Positions 2,170 through 47,250 of a stretch of 64,000 bases of DNA are shown piece after piece. The position numbers and the translations under genes were made by a program. Numbering within the stretch: the first letter of the stretch is position 1; the number at the start of each line of letters is the position of its first letter. Origin of the DNA: Sycobia sp. Sy_11 (Eukaryota; Arthropoda; Insecta; Hymenoptera; Epichrysomallidae); NCBI GenBank assembly GCA_018907035.1, contig JACCIC010000208.1, positions 529,501 through 593,500 of the forward strand, given 5' to 3'. A model generated the notes under the pieces. The model was not told the DNA's origin, searched no databases, and was given only the letters and a program-made list of their open reading frames with translations.

Positions 2170-3532
2170 CCTTAGGTGTAAGCACAATAAGCTTAAGAGG
2201 TATTTTGACCTCGACCTTCTACCTTTGTTTATATAATTACTAAGTCTTTCATTTACTTTGCTGTTGTTTAAATTTGAAATACTAGCATATTTCACAAGAA
2301 GAAGAGAAAGTTATTCTCCCTTGTGTTTACACCTCAGGTAGAAAATAGCGGATATTGTTGCTATGTGAAATTATAAGTAAAATTATGAATATACAATTAC
2401 TTATAATTTCATCATCATAAATGCATATATATATTCATTTAAAAACAACGAAAAGGGGTTCACGTGAATTGATTTCAGTACCATAAATCAATTAATTATT
2501 AATTAACACGTTAATAAATGGGTCTGACAAAAAGGGAAGAAAGAGGGAAAAAACGCTATTAATTCTCAAAGCTTGCCAGTAAATTTTTTTGACAAACTTA
2601 TGCCATTGCACATTCTTCTGCGCACAGTCATAGATGCAGTCGTCGCGTGTCCATGTGTGCACATGTACATGTAATAGGTACTTTCAGTTTCGCCTACCTT
2701 AACTAAATGAGTGGGTAAAATGAGTGGGTGCACTGTTTAGCTCTTCTACAGACATTCTTGATTATTCTCGTCGCGGGACCCACGTTCGCGGCGACATTTA
2801 TAACCCCGAACTCGACGTTAGTACTTACGGTCTGTCGATGTGTGCGTGGGCACTTCCACACCGCTGCTCGTGAACTCCGCTAGAAAGGGGACGGGGAATA
2901 TGGGAATGAAACACGCGGCAGTTTTTACGAGGTTTTAGCAATATTAACATTTTTTATTGCATGAGTCTATCTTACATTATTCGGGTAGCACATACGCTAC
3001 ATACTAATTGCGGGTTTCGCGACGATATAACAATTATTACGCAAATACGCTATCACACAAAATGCACGGGGACGCGGTTGCGCTTGACCACGGCTCGTAA
3101 CTGCTGATGGCATCGCTATGCGCGACGGTACACGGACGGCAGCGTGTTCGCGCTCTCGGTCCGGGACTGCGGCAAGGATATTACCGTGCATCTTTCTCAC
3201 TCCTCCGGTGTGTACGCACGTAAACGATGCGAACTTTACCTTGAAGGCACGTTACCGCGAAAGACGCTAAGATGGCGACCTCAAATTTTTACGACTCCAG
3301 TCGATGGAAAACGTAAAGTGGCAAATACAACGAAACGGAACGGGCGAAAAGTGCGTCGAACTATGCGAAGATCGGGGACGAAAGTGATCTTCATTTCAAT
3401 CCACTATTGAACATTTAACCTAAAGTTGCGCTCCCAGCGCCCTCGCGGCTCGCGCATACAATTTTGCGAGCTCGCACGAACACTCGCGGTTTTACCCGAG
3501 CGCTCTAACCTTCGACCACCGTTCAGGCGGTT

Positions 3533-25717: not shown

Positions 25718-27002
25718 TTAGGAGTGTGAATAAGTCTTTCCCGTTTTTTGTAAGAGATGGCGCCACCAATACTGTGCGAGTATTCAATGGTTACATATGT
25801 CATAATCAAAGCTTATTCATATGTCAACAATTCCATACTAACACATTAGTTAAAATTTTTTCGCATCATAAATTTTTGATATCGTGAAAATGTCGAAATT
25901 TGAGCCGAGTCGACGTCATTTGCGGGAAGTTTCACTTTATTGGTTCAATTTGAAGAAATCTGCTGCCGAGACGCATCGATTGCTTCAGGAGGCTTATGGA
26001 GAAGGTTGTGTCGATGATTCAAGTGTTCGCGGATGGTTTCGACGCTTCAAAAGCGGTGATTTCGACGTGGAAGACAAGGAGCGTTCCGGGCGGCCGCAAA
26101 TCTTTGAAGATCGAGAATTGGCGACTTTGCTTGATGAAGATTCTTGTCAAACGCAAGAAGAACTTGCTGAAGCAATGGGAGTTGACCGAACAACCATTTC
26201 CAAGCGTTTGAAAGCCATGGGAATGATCCAAAAGCAAGGAAATTGGGTGCCGTACGAACTGAAGCTGAGAGACGTCGAACGGCGTTTTTTCACTTGCGAA
26301 CAGCTGCTTCAGCGACATAAAAGAAAGGGTTTTCTGCATCGTATCGTGACTGGCGATGAAAAGTGGATACGTTACGATAATCCGAAGCGAAGAAAATCAT
26401 GGGGACTACCCGGCCATGCATCATCATCGACGGCCAAGCCAAATATTCATGGCGCCAAGCTCATGCTCTGTATATGGTGGGACCAACTAGGTGTGGTTTA
26501 CTATGAGCTTCTGAAACCGAATGAAAGGATCACAGGCGAGGTCTGTCGACGACAATTGATGCGTTTGAGCCGCGCACTGCGAACAAAACGGCCACAATAC
26601 TCCGACAGGCACGACAAAGTTATTTTGCAACATGACAATGCTCGCCCACATGTTGCACCACCGGTGAAAACATACTTAGAAACGCCCAAATGGGAAGTCC
26701 TACCCCACCGGCCGTATAGTCCAGACGTTGCTCCGTCTGATTACCATCTCTTCAGATCGATGACGCATGGCCTGGCTGACCAGCACTTCCATTCCTACGA
26801 GGAAGCCAAAAAATGGGTGGATGACTGGATAGAGGCCAAACCGGTCGAATTTTTTCGCAACGGGATTCGTATGTTGCCAGAAAGATGGGAAAAAGTTGTA
26901 GCTAACGATGGCCAATACTTTCAATAATTCATTTGTAACAATTTTTTCACAATAAAGGCTCAAAATTTGAAAAAAACGGGAAAGACTTATTCACATACCT
27001 GA
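25718..27002 (+). mobile_element. complete mariner transposon (family A) with intact transposase
   Basis: A 1285-bp element. Terminal repeats TTAGGAGTGTGAATAAGTC (from 25718) and the complement of TCAGGTATGTGAATAAGTC (ending 27002) are flanked by TA at 25716-25717 and 27003-27004. It holds one uninterrupted transposase gene and lies inside an R1-type LINE remnant within ALG1 intron 4. A truncated, nearly identical copy lies at 1433-2165. Confidence 0.93.
25884..26927 (+). CDS. mariner transposase, intact, 347 aa
   Basis: Cut-and-paste DD34D transposase acting in the nucleus on its own terminal repeats. Full length for the family and free of stops. Residues about 13-55 and 75-115 are the two helix-turn-helix motifs, the latter with QTQEELAEAMGVDRTTISK. 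WVPYEL (121-126) is the conserved linker. Catalytic residues are D158 in VTGDEKW, D251 in LQHDNARPH and D286 in APSDYHLF, with 34 residues between the last two. A second ATG two codons downstream gives MSKFEPSRRH, perhaps the true start. Regulation would depend on the terminal-repeat promoter or on ALG1 read-through. It may be active. Confidence 0.95.
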   Translation: MKMSKFEPSRRHLREVSLYWFNLKKSAAETHRLLQEAYGEGCVDDSSVRGWFRRFKSGDFDVEDKERSGRPQIFEDRELATLLDEDSCQTQEELAEAMGVDRTTISKRLKAMGMIQKQGNWVPYELKLRDVERRFFTCEQLLQRHKRKGFLHRIVTGDEKWIRYDNPKRRKSWGLPGHASSSTAKPNIHGAKLMLCIWWDQLGVVYYELLKPNERITGEVCRRQLMRLSRALRTKRPQYSDRHDKVILQHDNARPHVAPPVKTYLETPKWEVLPHRPYSPDVAPSDYHLFRSMTHGLADQHFHSYEEAKKWVDDWIEAKPVEFFRNGIRMLPERWEKVVANDGQYFQ

Positions 27003-30084: not shown

Positions 30085-30374
30085 TGAAAAACAAACGAAG
30101 CCTGCAGGTTTTTAACGCACCGCCGCGCACCCAGGATCAAGTCTCACCAGGAAAAAAGGGGAGTTGTTAGTGAAGCAGCTGATCTTTAGTGGACCACCAC
30201 GTCACCAGGATCAGGACTCTACTATTCAGGATTTTCGGACGAGCAGAATTTACTAGAACTCTGGAGACGGGATAGCTCTAGAGAGCTTTTTATCGTTGTA
30301 TCGCTCAGATAACTCCTTTTGGGGCTATACTCGCCATTTTATACACGAAAAATTAGTCGATCGGGCGTTTACAT
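30085..30374 (+). mobile_element. diverged fragment of the AGCG-hairpin element
   Basis: Contains one unit of the hairpin type seen at 43678-44024: CTGAT, CTTTA, GTGG, loop ACCA, CCAC, GTC, ACCAG, GATCA (30179-30213). A degenerate second unit ends CCCAGGATCAAG near 30140. Downstream order also agrees with the 44 kb element: a TTCAGGATTTTCGGACG stretch, an ACTCTGGAGA block, and a TTTTATA-to-ATCGG block. Same strand as the 43 kb units. Confidence 0.5.
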
Positions 30375-40895: not shown

Positions 40896-41155
40896 TTTTT
40901 TTTTTTTTAGTATTAGTGGTGGCCGCTCTCTCACCTGGGTCGTCGATGAAGAGAGCTCTGAACATGGCAAGAAGTGAGAGGTAGTAAAGAGGATTAAGAG
41001 AAGTACGGAGGAGGTAGTGGAGAGAAGAAAGGCGAGAGAGAGAGTGAATAAAGAAGGAACCGGAGAAGTATTATGCAAGAAGATAAAGGAGAGAGAGCGA
41101 GGTCTCTTTGATTTCCATTCCTCTTTGATCCTTAATCTCGAGTTATCTTTGATTT
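40896..41155. other. purine-rich unclassified segment
   Basis: A poly-T run, then a GA-rich stretch (about 40960-41105) and a twice-repeated CTTTGATTTCCAT block (near 41105 and 41147). It interrupts or ends the BEL element. Origin unknown. Confidence 0.4.
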
Positions 41156-41159
41156 CCAT

Positions 41160-42909
41160 CACGTGTAATGCAAATCGACTGCGTTGTTCGGGAACCGGGA
41201 CAATTTCTAATATTTTATGTTTTTACTTCCTTTCATCTTTAGTAACCCATTTTGGACCATAAAGTCACATTTCATTTTGAATAAACAGGCGAGGAAATTA
41301 TCCTCGCGATATATAATTTGCTGGATTACATTCTGTAGAAATGTGTCTCCAACTTTCGATGCTTGAATGTTTTTGAATAACTGCAACGCGATTAACGATA
41401 AATGTTTTTAGCGTGTATAGAAGTGTCCTTATCCAATTCAATATAATAGTAATAAATTTTACTGTAACTTAAATTCAATGAACTTTTAACTTGTTTTACT
41501 AAATTAACTAATAATAATGCTGCACAAAGTTCTAGTCGTGGTATCGTTGTTGTATTTAATGGCGTCACTCTTGATTTAGCACATATCAAACGTATACTCG
41601 TGTTTTTTGCCTGATCTATTGAACGCATATACACCCATGCCCCATAGGCACGCTCGCTCGCATTGCAAAAGCCGTGTAATTGATATTCTAAAGAATTCGG
41701 TAAAATAATTTGGTGTTTTGCTACAAATTGATTGAGTATGAGTAACTCTTTTCTAAAATTCAACCATTCAGTAGCTAATGTCTGAGGAATTGCTTCATCC
41801 CAATGTAGGTTTCATTTCCACAATTCTTGCATGAAACACTTACCAGTAGTGATTACAAGGCTTAACATGCCTAAAGGGTCAAATAGTTAAGCAATTTGAG
41901 ACAGTATTGTTCGCTTTGTTACCCGCTGATTTTCTGGTAATGGATTTACTAAATATCTTATTGTATCACTTAATGTGTCTCAATGAATACCTAAGAGTTT
42001 TTGCGATTTTTCTAAGTCTAAAGAAACAATATGAGATTCGTGCATCTTGATTAAATTATCAATCACTTCATGCTTATTCGACACTCATTTATGTAACGTC
42101 AATCCATCTAAATTTAATAAATAATTCAATTGTTGTTTTAATTCTGTTGCTTCTTCAATAGTATCTGCTCCCGTCAACAAATCATTGACGTAAAAATCTC
42201 TTTTTATTCGAACATCTGCTTTAAGAGCTTTGTGCTCTTCATCCTCCGCTAATTTATACAGTACTCTCGTGGCTAGAAATGACGCACACGCGGTACCTTG
42301 AGTTACTGTGTCCAGTTGAAATACTTTGATTGGCTCGCTTTTCTTTTCACGCCATAAGATTTTTTGATATTTGGCGTCTTCGCTATCTATTTTAACTTGA
42401 CGGTACAGTTGTTGCAAGTCGGCTACGAGTACCACATTATGTAATCTAAACCGCATAACAATTTTTATTAATTCGTCTTGAATAATTGGCCCGACTAATC
42501 ATACATCGTTCAATGATAAGTTAGTTGTACTTTTGGCCAATGCAGCAAAAACAACCCGGATCTTTGTCGAAATTTGATCATATTTTACTACTGCCTGATG
42601 TGGTTTGTGATATCTTTCGCTCTTATTATTGATGTGCGTGATCTCACTCATGTGCTTCAAATTCAAATATTCCCGTAAAAACGGAATATACTGATTTCGC
42701 AATGTAACGTCTTTATTTAACTTCTTTTCTAGCGCAAAAAATCTTTTCAACGCGATATCATACGCCTGTCCGAGTATGGCCTTCTTATCGTTAAACGGCA
42801 ATCGCACTATATATCTACCGTTATCATTGCGAGTATAATTTTTCAAGAAATATTCTTCACATTCCAATTCCTCAGCCGAAAAATGTTTTATATACGGTAA
42901 ATTTTCCAT
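41160..42909 (-). pseudogene. BEL/Pao reverse transcriptase and RNase H
   Basis: RT N-terminus at 42909-42499 (FSAEELECEEYFLKNYTR, PFNDKKAILGQAYDIALKRF, KYDQISTKIRVVFAALAKS, LNDV). RT core at 42456-42085 (VADLQQLYRQVKI, LDTVTQGTACASFLATRVL, FYVNDLLTGADTIEEA; the polymerase motif reads YVND where YVDD is usual). RNase H at 41763-41392 (YQLHGFCNASERAYGAWVY and TIPRLELCAALLL), with its end in another frame down to about 41180 (WRHISTECNPANYISRG, YGPKWVTK). Several frameshifts. Confidence 0.85.
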
Positions 42910-43026
42910 TTCCCAAAATCGAACTATTTGTTCGTCTACTGTTATTAAATGACAAATTTTGTTTGATTTACAATTTTGTTGCGACGATTCTATGCTTCCT
43001 ACAACAAGCCACTCTAATAAGGTTTT

Positions 43027-43270
43027 TTATAATACAATATTAGAATATTCTGATAATTTAATTTGCGCACTGCTCAATAATTTATAAAATATTGTTGTAC
43101 CGATTAAAATATCTATTTCATGCGGTTTTCCAAATTCCGAATAAGCTAGATTTATATTATGTGGCAATGTGAATGAATTTTTATTTATATGACGCGACGG
43201 CAGAGTCCCAGTTATTTTAGGTGGAGCTAAAAAATCTACTTCCAATTGGAAATTATCTGCTTTAGACATA
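43027..43270 (-). pseudogene. BEL/Pao protease, downstream part
   Basis: Encodes LEVDFLAPPKITGTLPSR and FGKPHEIDILIGTTIFYKLL, the PKI-T-LPS and IDILIG motifs that follow the aspartic protease core in BEL elements. It joins in frame to the upstream part once the insertion and one TAACGT duplicate are removed. Confidence 0.8.
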
Positions 43271-43677
43271 TAACGTTCCTATCCCCCTCGGGATAGCCTA
43301 CGCGGTATCTTCCCAGGGTAGTTTTGAGAGGGGAGGAAGTTTTTCAGGATTGGACGGCGGTTTCAGGAAAATAATATTACACGAACACAGTATATAATTT
43401 TTTTATAACAAAAAATATAAATTTATTTACGAAAAAAATAAATCAGCTCCTCTATCTACAGGATTCTGAAACAAATCAATATAAACACAAAAAATAATTA
43501 ATAAAGGTAAACTATAGCTAGATCTATATATTTATTTGTATAAATTTTGCGCTATTTTCCGCAATGCCTCTAATATTCGGCGCTAGTTTCCGCACGAATA
43601 CCCGGTGTTATTTTCCACGCGGGGATTTAATGAATCGAGACAGGTTGATTTGAAAGGGAAAAAAATAAGGAACAAAC

Positions 43678-44024
43678 TTAACTCCGCTGGTCTTTTGAGG
43701 AGCGCCTCGCAACCAGGATCAAGAGTTAAGGGGAGAATTTCTGGTCTGGATAAGTAAACTGCTGGTCTTTTGAGGAGCGCCTCGCAACCAGGATCACGTT
43801 TACTTAAGGATAGGTAAAGTTATTAGCCGTCTGTCTTTTGAGGAGCGCCTCGCAACAGAGATCAAGCTAATAACTTCGGAGAAATTGGTAAATGTAAGGA
43901 TAAGTAAACTGCTGGTCTTTTGAGGAGCGCCTCGCAACCAGGATCACGTTTACTTCGGAAAGGTAAATTATTAACCGTCTGTCTTTTGAGGAGCGCCTCG
44001 CAACAGAGATCAAGTTAATAATTT
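43678..44024 (+). repeat. five AGCG-capped hairpin units with covarying stems
   Basis: Units at 43678-43729, 43751-43806, 43817-43876, 43902-43955 and 43965-44024. Each is P1, a 2-3 nt strand, P2, CTTTT, GAGG, loop AGCG, CCTC, GCA, P2', a GATCA strand, P1'. P1 arms are TTAACTC, TAAGTAAAC, AAGTTATTAGC, AAGTAAAC and AAATTATTAAC with their exact complements. P2 is CTGGT/ACCAG in units 1, 2 and 4 and TCTGT/ACAGA in units 3 and 5. Units 3 and 5 differ at two P1 positions, both G:C to A:T with the partner changed as well. This looks like selection or templated repair for pairing. Confidence 0.85.
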
Positions 44025-44565
44025 CGGAAAGGAAAAAAGTCAGGATTAAATCGAGCTCTGGAAAAGGTATTAGCTCCGGGAGGAGTTCGTGTGAAACAAC
44101 TTCGGGGCAGTTGGTTCACCGGGCGAACTGCCGATTTTGCCTTTTGCGGGCCTTTTTATAGCAAAATAATCGGATAATTCCGTCGCCGCTCGTTTAATTT
44201 CGGACGAGGCGCCGAATTATAATAATTATATTAATAATAACAATAATTATAATAATAACAATAATAATTAATAATAATTATAATATTCAATAATAATTAT
44301 AACAATTATTATTTTGTATTTCGTTATTATTAGCAGCCTGTGTCCTGCGCACAATAATAATACACATATACACAAGCTTAAATATTTATATACATATATT
44401 TATGCATTATGTGTACATTAAATTATTTGTTTTAGATAATTTAATTAAATACAGCGGGTGCATTCGTTTTTGGACACCCGTTGTATATGCTGGTATTCGC
44501 GCGTTCGCTACATTGGTTGCGACTCAGGCTGCTCAGTGAGAGCGTATAATAGTGTGCGTGCGACA

Positions 44566-44641
44566 TGTATTAGAGGGGATAGCGGCCGCCGGTCTAATAC
44601 ATTGAACGCGCGTTCTCTTGCCGCGCGCAGTGTATCCCCTC
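44566..44641. other. interleaved stems (possible H-type pseudoknot)
   Basis: TGTATTAGA (44566-44574) pairs with TCTAATACA (44593-44601), and GAGGGGATA (44573-44581) pairs with TATCCCCTC (44633-44641). The order A, B, A', B' defines a pseudoknot. GAACGCGCGTTC (44604-44615) is a further palindrome between them. Confidence 0.65.
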
Positions 44642-44938
44642 TACGGCATACGCTGTACTTAACTTAGTGGTAGAGAGAGAGACTAGATATCGCGTTCTCT
44701 CTCTACTTGTTCGAGTTTCGGCAGTTGCGACGACTACCTTCTTCAGTAGTCGTCGCGACCTTTGCCCGGTTTTCGGTGTTTATTTGGTATATACGCGAGT
44801 CTTAATTTAATCATTATAGAAATAATATGTTTAAAATATTATTTCTAATAATATTCGATATTCTTTCTTGTAAATTTATACATCTAATTCCGTGTATGTA
44901 TTGTAAAATACATCCACCGAATTAGATGTAATACTATC

Positions 44939-45240
44939 TCAAATTTTAACGTGTAACATGAGTCCTTTGTTCGAAGTAAATTTGCGCGGCCATGTTTTTG
45001 GCCGTCGCAGACATAATTTTTGCTCCTTGCTGTACTGTGATCTAATTGTTAGCTGCCCTAATCCCGATAAACGTAAATCGATCCTTTCCTTTTTTAACTC
45101 TAATTTGTCGGCTAATCGTTCAGTTACAAAATTACTTTGGGAGCAACCATCTAAAAGAACTCTACATTCATGAGCAATCTTATATTTGTCAAATACTTTT
45201 ATGCGGGTTGTGCCGAGTAATACTTCTGCATCGCTCACAA
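44939..45240 (-). pseudogene. BEL/Pao protease, upstream part
   Basis: Minus-strand frame with VLLGTTRIKVFD and RVLLDGCSQSNFVTERLADK. In BEL/Pao proteins the aspartate of LLD-CSQ-NF is the protease active site, so the catalytic residue is kept here. A frameshift after about 45050 precedes the insertion. Confidence 0.8.
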
Positions 45241-45253
45241 TAGCATATATTCT

Positions 45254-45620
45254 TTACGTAGGCAATAATTTTTCAGTACTATTTTTTAGCGTAAGAGTGC
45301 AAGTTTTTGGTACAACTTCAGATTCTTCTTCGTTTATTGTTTTTTCGGACCTATTAGATGATATTTTTTCAATATTATTATAATGTAGTAGAACATTATG
45401 TTTTCGATCGCATTTTTTACAACCGGGAGCAAAGCATTTATTAGTCGCATGGTTGCCTTTTAAACAATTTAAACAGAGATGCTTCAATCTAGCTTGGTTG
45501 CTTCTTTGATAAGGAGTTAACTTTAAAAATTCTTCACAAAAGTATATTGTATGATCATCCTTACAGAAAGCTCAATAATTTTTTTGTATTGTCGTGCTGA
45601 CATAGGCTTGAGATCGAGTT
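45254..45620 (-). pseudogene. BEL/Pao gag zinc-knuckle region
   Basis: CLNCLKGNHATNKC is a CCHC knuckle (C-X2-C-X4-H-X4-C), followed by APGCKKCDRKHNVLLHY, the second cysteine-histidine cluster typical of BEL gag before the protease. Confidence 0.85.
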
Positions 45621-45779
45621 CGTGACATTTTATTTACTTTGTTTACCGTGTGTTTTTCATTAATTATTTTTGGTTTTAATTCTATTTCTACTCTACGTTC
45701 TTGTTTACTTAAAAATTCTATTAAGTCTGTAAATATTAACATGTGTACGTGATCAAACTTCTGTTCCCATACTCTACGC

Positions 45780-46445
45780 GTGACTTTATCAGATTTTTTA
45801 ATAATAATATATACTAAGATTATGTTCCAGCTTTCTACTGGTTACCTTAATGCTTTTAACACTGTCACGTGCCTTTGCGCAGTTTCTTTAAGATTTCATA
45901 CACTAAGCGGAGAAAGTCCCACGCTGCAAAATAATTTTCTTCCGATGCCCCGAGAGACTCAATTATTGTGGTTAAACTTCCCCTTAAAGCATTTTTCAAT
46001 AAGTGAAATTTTTGAACAGCTGGGATATTTCTTTCATCGTGTACAAGTGCTTTAATATATCATGGAAACTATGCCACTCCATCGGATTGCCATCGAACGG
46101 TTGAATCTCAATTTTTGGTAATAACGCATTATTCGGTTGTTGTATTGTTATATTCGGTGTTCGTATTGGACTTTTGAATACGTTCTGATCATTGATTAAG
46201 TACCTGTACCTGAACGCGCGAAGCCTCTGGTTTATAAGCTTTTCACAATAAAAATATTGCTGTTCGAATTTTGATCGTTCTGATTCTTGTGCACTCTCGA
46301 CCTCCGCCCCTTCTGTCAATATTTCAATTTCTAACTGTACTTCAAGATACGATTTGTAAATTTCTTCTATCTTCATTTTCCGAATTTGTATGTCATCAAT
46401 ATCAATATTATTTTCATTACTAAAAAAGGCTATCGTGCGCGTCAA
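45780..46445 (-). pseudogene. BEL/Pao gag, N-terminal part
   Basis: The frame at 46445-45996 includes QQYFYCEKLINQRLRAF and PKIEIQPFDGNPMEWHSFHD, the FDG-P-EW-SF motif of BEL gag (usually LP-I-LP-F-G). Decayed gag continues to about 45780 and on to the zinc-knuckle region. Confidence 0.8.
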
Positions 46446-46450
46446 TTAGC

Positions 46451-47250
46451 CTTTTAATGATGCCCGCGTTTTAATTAAATCTTATATTTTTCTCCTTTAG
46501 TAGTCATTATATACCGAATTCAATTCTAAGATAGTTGAGATTATTATTTATAAATGCTATTATTGTTATTGTTTACAATGCGTACAATACAACAAAGAAG
46601 CAATATAACCAGGAAATTTTGAGATGGAGATTTATATTATAATTTGCCTACCTTTGACTGGAGCATACAGTTGGTTTAATACAACCAAACTTCTTGGGCT
46701 ATCACTCCAAAACGAGACGGACATGCAGATTTCTAGCGCAATGATGGTTGATGCAACTAGTTGTAGATGGCGACTAGTTGTAGATTAGCTTTCCTGATGT
46801 ATAGCGGCTCCAAACGGGATATAAAACAGAACTTTTCTTGCAATTGAACTCTAAACGAGAGTTATTTCGATGACATGTGTAACGAATGATACATCTTTAA
46901 TGATAATTCGTGACTCCAAATGAAATATCCAGGACAGTGCCGTAAGCGGTAGCTTCAACGGATGCAGAACAAAAATTTTCTTATATTTCTGTGCATGAGT
47001 AAATATTTTTTTTTTTTTTTTGTAGACTTACTTCTTTATTCTTGTGAAAGATACTTTCAATTATTACTCACTTCACAGATGAACTTTAATCATCTATGAA
47101 TTATATTTATAACTATTTTAAATTACTGAGACAGGATGAGTAAATAAATTTCCAAGTCGATATTACACGTATACAAATTTAATAAACTGCAGTTCAAGTG
47201 TTACACTTTCTGTTCTCATGGTTGAGTAACATCTCGTCTCCTTCCACTAT
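46451..47250. other. AT-rich DNA
   Basis: Poly-T run near 47008-47022. No LTR for the BEL element recognised here. Confidence 0.5.

Follow-up and report, generated by a model that had tools for sequence, protein, structure and literature searches.

Near-fixed loops and exchangeable stems in a tandem hairpin array: a candidate cis-acting RNA element in the LTR of an insect Ty3/gypsy retrotransposon

Structured R regions are known from the long terminal repeats (LTRs) of retroviruses (PMC3601003, in excerpt). Like the stem-loops of long retroviral R regions, those described here favour conservation of both arms in what we predict to be R; in contrast to them, they are tandem copies of one hairpin type, sit in an insect Ty3/gypsy element and combine near-fixed loops with free stems. 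The known retroviral signals are sets of unlike stem-loops, whereas the present array repeats one unit. Even in yeast, according to the excerpted text of PMC4974528, the RNA feature of Ty1 and Ty3 that is read by Gag is not precisely defined. What our locus may share with the Gag-recognised RNAs of Ty1, Ty3 and retroviruses are leader structures that Gag could recognise, with binding here a candidate property only. Drosophila Arc1, a Ty3/gypsy-like Gag, is reported to bind the retrovirus-like part of its own 3'UTR (PMC8486535, in part). Our likeness to this case goes by the description of the Arc1 3'UTR element, and differs from it in that the gag considered here belongs to a mobile element. 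Structured RNA-like sequence within an LTR, namely a hammerhead, is reportedly also found in retrozymes. Cassandra, Helenus and Ajax have LTRs with small-RNA-derived parts (PMC10886601, as excerpted). With these TRIMp3 elements and with retrozymes our locus has structured RNA-like sequence in the LTR in common, the difference being that here full-length copies with gag and pol exist. Rfam searches of the window (the 64-kb stretch of the Sycobia sp. Sy_11 genome analysed here) and of the array found no hammerhead ribozyme, and the window gave no tRNA or 5S match, nor indeed any match at gathering score; the best score for the array was 17.5 bits against a cut-off of 36. In searches of the open-licence literature, none of the papers listed pointed, by title or abstract start, to a tandem hairpin array in an LTR.

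The sequence that hosts the array is bounded as follows.

43269..45009, minus strand: 1741-bp solo LTR of a Ty3/gypsy element, by comparison with L001-L007
43265..43268, no strand: target-site duplication GACA, left copy, by comparison with other copies
45010..45013, no strand: target-site duplication GACA, right copy, by comparison with other copies

Searching the window's own 621-Mb genome with a 381-nt array query gave at least 41 matches (a lower bound, 40 of 1491 candidates having been scored), and 22 of the 41 listed matches form 11 same-strand pairs with a spacing of 7.5-8.4 kb. Comparison of L001-L008 set the LTR ends, with TGCGACGG at the start and AACGTTACA at the end; the window copy, 98.3-99.2% identical to L001-L007, begins with TGCGACGG in sense and ends in AACGTTA[TA], where other copies have CA in place of the final TA. 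The LTRs have TG...CA ends, and 4-bp target-site duplications (ACTG and AAAT) were seen at both LTR pairs checked. Behind the 5' LTR, all four copies examined carry a primer-binding site (PBS), TGGCGCCCGAACAGGGAC, which we take to fit lysine tRNA, and in one copy a purine tract (PPT), AAAAAAGAGGGAGA, stands ahead of the TG of the 3' LTR. Full-length copies contain gag (PF03732 above cut-off), and a 2.4-kb piece with an open frame holds RVT_1, RT_RNaseH, Integrase_H2C2 and rve in Ty3/gypsy order. Paired LTRs with target-site duplications, PBS plus PPT, and gag together with reverse transcriptase, RNase H and integrase in that order identify a Ty3/gypsy element, and since only one LTR is present in the window, this copy is a solo LTR. 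That it derives from a young Ty3/gypsy element with full-length copies in the genome is, to our minds, virtually certain; a place in the Osvaldo/Ulysses clade may be hinted at by two features, the long LTR and the presumed lysine-tRNA PBS. The original prediction had left both context and strand of the array open: the context is an LTR of a Ty3/gypsy element, and the strand is a matter of prediction to which we return below. Two other pairs of insertion bounds, a TAACGT repeat (43271-43276 and 44947-44952) and AGACATA (43264-43270 and 45009-45015), were rejected in favour of the ends given by other copies, and a Helitron, SINE, terminal-hairpin or Polinton-like element was dropped once the genome search showed LTR pairs.

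The surroundings of the solo LTR hold other mobile sequence. It splits, in the peptidase part and on the same strand, a decayed copy with broken frames at about 40900-46470 (minus strand), which we take to be BEL/Pao-like; the one relevant Pfam match, DUF1758, reaches 13.1 bits, below the cut-off of 22, and either flank of the insertion aligns with protein fragments from other insects. Further away, at 25884-26927 (plus strand), an open frame of 347 aa encodes a mariner/Mos1-like transposase with HTH and DDE domains.

Within the LTR, the array consists of five hairpin units (43677-44024), listed here in sense order with P1 lengths counted as strict Watson-Crick pairs.

43965..44024, minus strand: hairpin unit 5 (first in sense), P1 of 11 bp
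43902..43955, minus strand: hairpin unit 4, P1 of 8 bp
43817..43876, minus strand: hairpin unit 3, P1 of 11 bp
43751..43806, minus strand: hairpin unit 2, P1 of 9 bp
43677..43730, minus strand: hairpin unit 1 (last in sense), P1 of 8 bp

Read as sense RNA, each unit runs through P1, a UUGAUC loop, P2, a UGC loop, P3, the cap CGCU and an [A/U]AAAG loop. The original prediction of five units with common cap and internal loops is borne out, the 23-nt core TCTTTTGAGGAGCGCCTCGCAAC recurring in five exact copies that all lie in the array; allowing up to three mismatches, no further copy occurs elsewhere in the window, and none in 100 shuffles. Its claims of two paired versions of P2, and of two P1 differences between units 3 and 5 that are both compensated, likewise hold, as does that of an always perfectly complementary P1, although the length range of 7 to 11 bp given for it has to be corrected to the values listed. 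Units 2 and 4 are identical, leaving four distinct units, and in a gapless register of 52 columns all four form 16 of 16 pairs. Changes on both sides affect nine of these pairs and one-sided changes alone affect none, with 100% of cells paired as opposed to 77.7% in shuffled units (a level reached by none of 500 shuffles) and 28-47% with the partner strand slid. The loop stretch of the units in sense, UUGAUCCUG, presumably has a match close to the 5' end of eukaryotic 18S rRNA, a likeness that is probably due to chance. Elsewhere in the LTR we observed a second hairpin set:

43547..43623, minus strand: three small hairpins whose stems vary and whose loop is GAAA[A/C]TA[A/G]

In this set the stems swap GTG/CAC for GCG/CGC, and counterparts are found in L012, L013 and L014 (three each), L018 and L019 (two each) and L016 (one). 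The U3 part (44300-44960) is hairpin-rich as DNA (z -8.2, 20 shuffles), with 150-nt RNA windows at z -0.8 to -2.7 over the two strands.

Units of this kind are shared by several LTR families of the same genome, with one to seven units detected per copy. A pattern excluding the P3 of the main family hit 12 places as opposed to seven for a reversed control, and model R1 found units in nine of ten loci taken from that pattern; over the longer blocks that could be aligned, identity of these LTRs with the main one lies mostly at 65-78%. DNA queries with two diverged arrays brought in L021-L050 and L051-L080, in which R1 recognised units in 30 of 30 and, with L051 and L052 left out as repeats of L015 and L017, in 28 of 28 scanned loci, as expected with arrays as queries. 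In a family we call family 2, a stretch of about 1.96 kb in L025 aligns, with common ends, to 13 of the 29 other loci and is taken by us as the LTR; each locus has three to seven units (seven in L026), the L025 array has no Rfam match at E up to 1, and among the L021-L050 matches listed there is no same-strand LTR pair. The window itself contains a relic of this type:

30096..30221, minus strand: decayed two-unit array of a related (family-2) LTR, matched at E 0.14 and 1.1e-4

It belongs to a family-2-type LTR fragment at 30096-30340 (minus strand), which also has a TATAAAA box. Exact array patterns were absent from viral and prokaryote contig collections, and BLAST gave no match for most of the LTR against phages or for the array against plasmids, results of little weight, the collections being viral, prokaryotic and plasmid ones. 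The original prediction had considered that the array might have no other loci in the genome, or that a known LTR might explain it. The former is contradicted by the related LTRs of Sycobia sp. Sy_11 that carry units; as to the latter, the array does lie in an LTR, yet being in one leaves unexplained why the pairing persists as LTRs diverge.

For covariation among these relatives we used alignments of which A3, A4 and A5 were fitted to the structural model, with a bias in its favour, and A1, A2, A6 and A7 are gapless. In the fitted A3 (27 distinct units) and A4 (108 distinct units), both of which contain dead copies, 86.8% and 91.6% of cells are paired, as opposed to 66.0% and 80.1% after shuffling and 34-50% and 31-51% after sliding; both-sided cells number 99 against 36.6 shuffled in A3 and 218 against 71.8 in A4. 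Two of the five measures computed for A3 and A4, the number of pairs with both-sided changes and that of further pair types, do not clearly exceed the shuffles (88 and 210 of 500 for A3, 422 and 91 of 500 for A4). Limiting units to sequences found unchanged in several loci removes private decay: out of 180 distinct gap-free units, 21 occur in at least two loci and ten in at least three. The latter ten unit types make up A6, in which 158 of 160 cells (98.8%) are paired (shuffled 72.5%, slid 33-49%) and both-sided changes occur at 11 of 16 pairs (reached by 2 of 500 shuffles) and in 43 cells as opposed to 12.7 shuffled (0 of 500), with P2 and P3 covarying too. Among the remaining 11 shared units are damaged ones, down to 10 of 16 pairs, some of them from the identical places L015 and L017. 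Across all 21, in ten disjoint contrasts, pairing is kept in eight of 11 both-sided changes, compared with 1.30 on average and five at most in 2000 re-pairings, and in seven of 21 one-sided changes. Compensatory changes in relatives beyond shuffled and slid controls are what one looks for in a structured RNA under selection and are seen here, and the earlier view that outer stems covary in a structured element, whether RNA or cruciform, is supported by covariation that recurs in genome relatives.

The picture changes when all 180 units are compared in 90 nearest-neighbour contrasts. Here 220 changes are one-sided, 64 of them still paired, and of 26 both-sided changes eight are paired in both members (random re-pairing: mean 2.9, maximum 9); the UGC loop and the cap change as fast as the stems. 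In these contrasts, most copies show no sign of constraint, and the dominance of one-sided changes is what neutral decay of dead copies after insertion predicts. Such uncompensated recent changes would also suit an explanation without any selection on structure, which sees tandem duplication plus hairpin-templated repair or template switching as the means to keep arms matched. In its favour, units 2-3 are repeated in tandem as units 4-5, with a 148-nt period and 94% matches, and L026 has as many as seven units. The loops, however, argue otherwise. Between the main LTR and eight diverged loci, a comparison biased in that the loci were found by a pattern fixing loop bases in one unit each, identity is 93-96% for internal loops and cap, 88% for P2, 85% for U5, 80% for U3, 78% for P3, 77% for the core promoter, 76% for P1, 74% for non-array R and 73% for spacers. 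With pattern-selected units and three duplicates removed, a set of 15 units still gives 91-93% for internal loops, 93% for P2, 87% for the cap, 83% for P3 and 77% for P1, and 14 of 15 both-sided P1 changes in it stay paired while 13 of 15 one-sided ones lose pairing. Among the 21 shared units the commonest base has a share of 0.90-0.97 in loops and cap and of 0.54 in P1. Free stems with near-fixed loops point to selection on structure and are the reverse of what arm-copying repair alone should leave behind: the original prediction named such repair as a rival, but repair by itself does not predict well-conserved unpaired loops next to a P1 that diverges about as fast as spacers. Across LTR families the unpaired loops remain constant as P1 and spacers drift apart, and G.U pairs stand at shared positions, unlike the product of arm copying; we regard an origin without selection as highly improbable. 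Judged from these alignments, the array is very probably a structure under selection that has been maintained in evolution.

The same pattern bears on the idea that the LTR houses a cluster of small-RNA precursors, either miRNA-like or piRNA-trigger hairpins. A row of 52-60-nt hairpins is what such a cluster could look like; conserved internal loops with free arms are nevertheless the reverse of a conserved mature small RNA, Rfam has no miRNA match at gathering score, and we consider this extremely improbable.

Signals for transcription run along the minus strand of the window.

44152..44160, minus strand: TATA box TATAAAAAG, by sequence pattern
44125..44131, minus strand: initiator-like GCAGTTC, with a predicted start at 44129
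43414..43427, minus strand: predicted poly(A) signal AATAAA, with a GT-rich stretch at 43380-43395

TATA box and initiator at this spacing form the only such pair in 64 kb, which is weak by itself: chance alone would give 0.6 in each window, and at least one turns up in 45 of 100 shuffles. A TATA box at similar distance ahead of the first unit is present in seven of ten loci examined (the window's own counted), the simple pattern used finding none in L015, L016 and L017, and in six of seven family-2 loci printed TATAAAA precedes the first unit by 124 nt; in the seventh, L021, it lies 178 nt ahead of the first unit detected. AATAAA follows the array at a similar place in three of nine sequences printed (main LTR, L014, L019), and the core promoter, at 77% identity between LTRs, falls below U3 with 80%. 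From these signals we infer that the transcript of the element is on the window's minus strand, opposite to the reading in the original prediction. The array would extend from about +105 to before the poly(A) signal and should thus fall within R. As R stands at either end of the genomic RNA, the array is predicted to occur twice, once in the 5' leader and once in the 3'UTR.

Whether it is the sense RNA or the DNA that selection sees is less easily read from the fold. Single units fold with z -1.1 to -4.1 (five on the plus strand, three on the minus strand) and 150-nt windows across the array with z +0.7 to -1.4, so folding energy is less striking than covariation, and hairpins can be folded on either strand (both tried for three of the five units). 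RNAalifold of the ten A6 units yields -22.6 kcal/mol and 19 pairs in sense, and -17.2 kcal/mol and 15 pairs in antisense. The 180 units contain 234 G.U as opposed to 121 A.C cells and fold better in sense in 112 of 180 cases; in A4 the G.U excess comes from the P3 base pair (85 G.U against 75 A.C at the other pairs) and A.C is fixed at one P1 pair in one unit type, and the 15-unit set has ten G.U against 11 A.C. Together, the strand signals argue with moderate strength for sense RNA as the selected molecule. A DNA-level site, in which inverted repeats of the LTR serve to bind a regulator or adopt a cruciform shape, would profit from how modest the RNA strand signal is and from an inverted repeat being there on both strands. 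Against it, P1 is replaced wholesale between units so that no fixed DNA palindrome is kept, G.U at the P3 base in five of ten shared types pairs as RNA in sense only, and the consensus fold is better in sense; all in all, we find a DNA site very unlikely. In the predicted main leader, units 1, 3 and 5 form and units 2 and 4 do not (probability 0.02), presumably because the latter, being identical, pair with each other. Leader folds of related loci have L020 units mostly formed, L014 units partly so and three of four L015 units not formed, the failures in L014 and L015 being decayed units.

Further hairpins were noticed outside the arrays: behind the main-family PBS, L006 has at about 2420-2485 (plus strand) a hairpin CCTAGT-GGCGGGTTGAGCG-ACTAGG plus a neighbouring one, and L021 of family 2 has right after its array, at about 1847-1912 of the reverse complement, the paired variant CCTGGT...ACCAGG.

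Our preferred reading is that of a cis-acting RNA element in R which would act as a protein platform, with Gag as first candidate, a tentative view to which we give not quite an even chance. RNA of the element, made from the window's minus strand, would fold from about 105 nt past its start into a row of similar hairpins. P1 would serve as a clamp for which any sequence that pairs is good enough, and loops and cap would be the parts that are read; because each terminus of the genomic RNA has R, the platform would be present twice, and the repeated loops could provide a multivalent site for a protein that selects the element's own RNA. Gag comes first among candidates because array and U5 end still align between distant LTRs; L020, for one, can be aligned with the main LTR only in these two places, as expected of a required cis element. 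A second reason, one of analogy, is that Drosophila Arc1 is reported to bind a region of its own 3'UTR (PMC8486535, in part). An Arc-like source name is attached to three of 53 gag homologues (P0031, P0064, P0065), which may reflect automatic naming; the hymenopterans Lasioglossum, Odontomachus and Trichogramma also figure as sources in this set. Recognition by Gag, be it for packaging or dimerisation, seems to us possible, though we would sooner doubt than assert it.

Position in the predicted 5' leader and 3'UTR, and the stability of the hairpins, would equally suit control of translation or stability of the element's mRNA, for instance through internal entry, a scanning block or protection from decay. 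The loops are fixed in every copy, which is more than a plain barrier requires, and we judge this role distinctly unlikely. Downstream of the array, at 43461-43475 (minus strand), there is a 3'-splice-site-like TTTGTTTCAG that is conserved across several LTR families; given this, a leader intron is possible. The conserved stretch may also be taken to favour RNA export, in which the loops recruit an export receptor for unspliced genomic RNA, as may the fact that internal loops of fixed sequence are repeated in an RNA that needs to exit the nucleus unspliced. Constitutive transport elements are known for simple retroviruses, which counts in favour of export, and R at both ends is atypical for them, which counts against it; export strikes us as unlikely.

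A more specific version of the Gag platform can be envisaged in which the array is an RNA address tag at both ends, built of a row of interchangeable hairpins, with the element's own Gag reading their fixed loops in a cooperative manner. We think of it as doubtful. If true, array length would set avidity, and each solo LTR could pass the tag on to host transcripts. In this compact, repeated motif, differences found in nature already tell putative readable loops apart from filler stems, so that what Gag reads can be tested directly with short RNAs, and the array would be a new family for an RNA library. More generally, our findings suggest that hairpins arrayed in tandem within an LTR can be functional parts rather than satellite noise.
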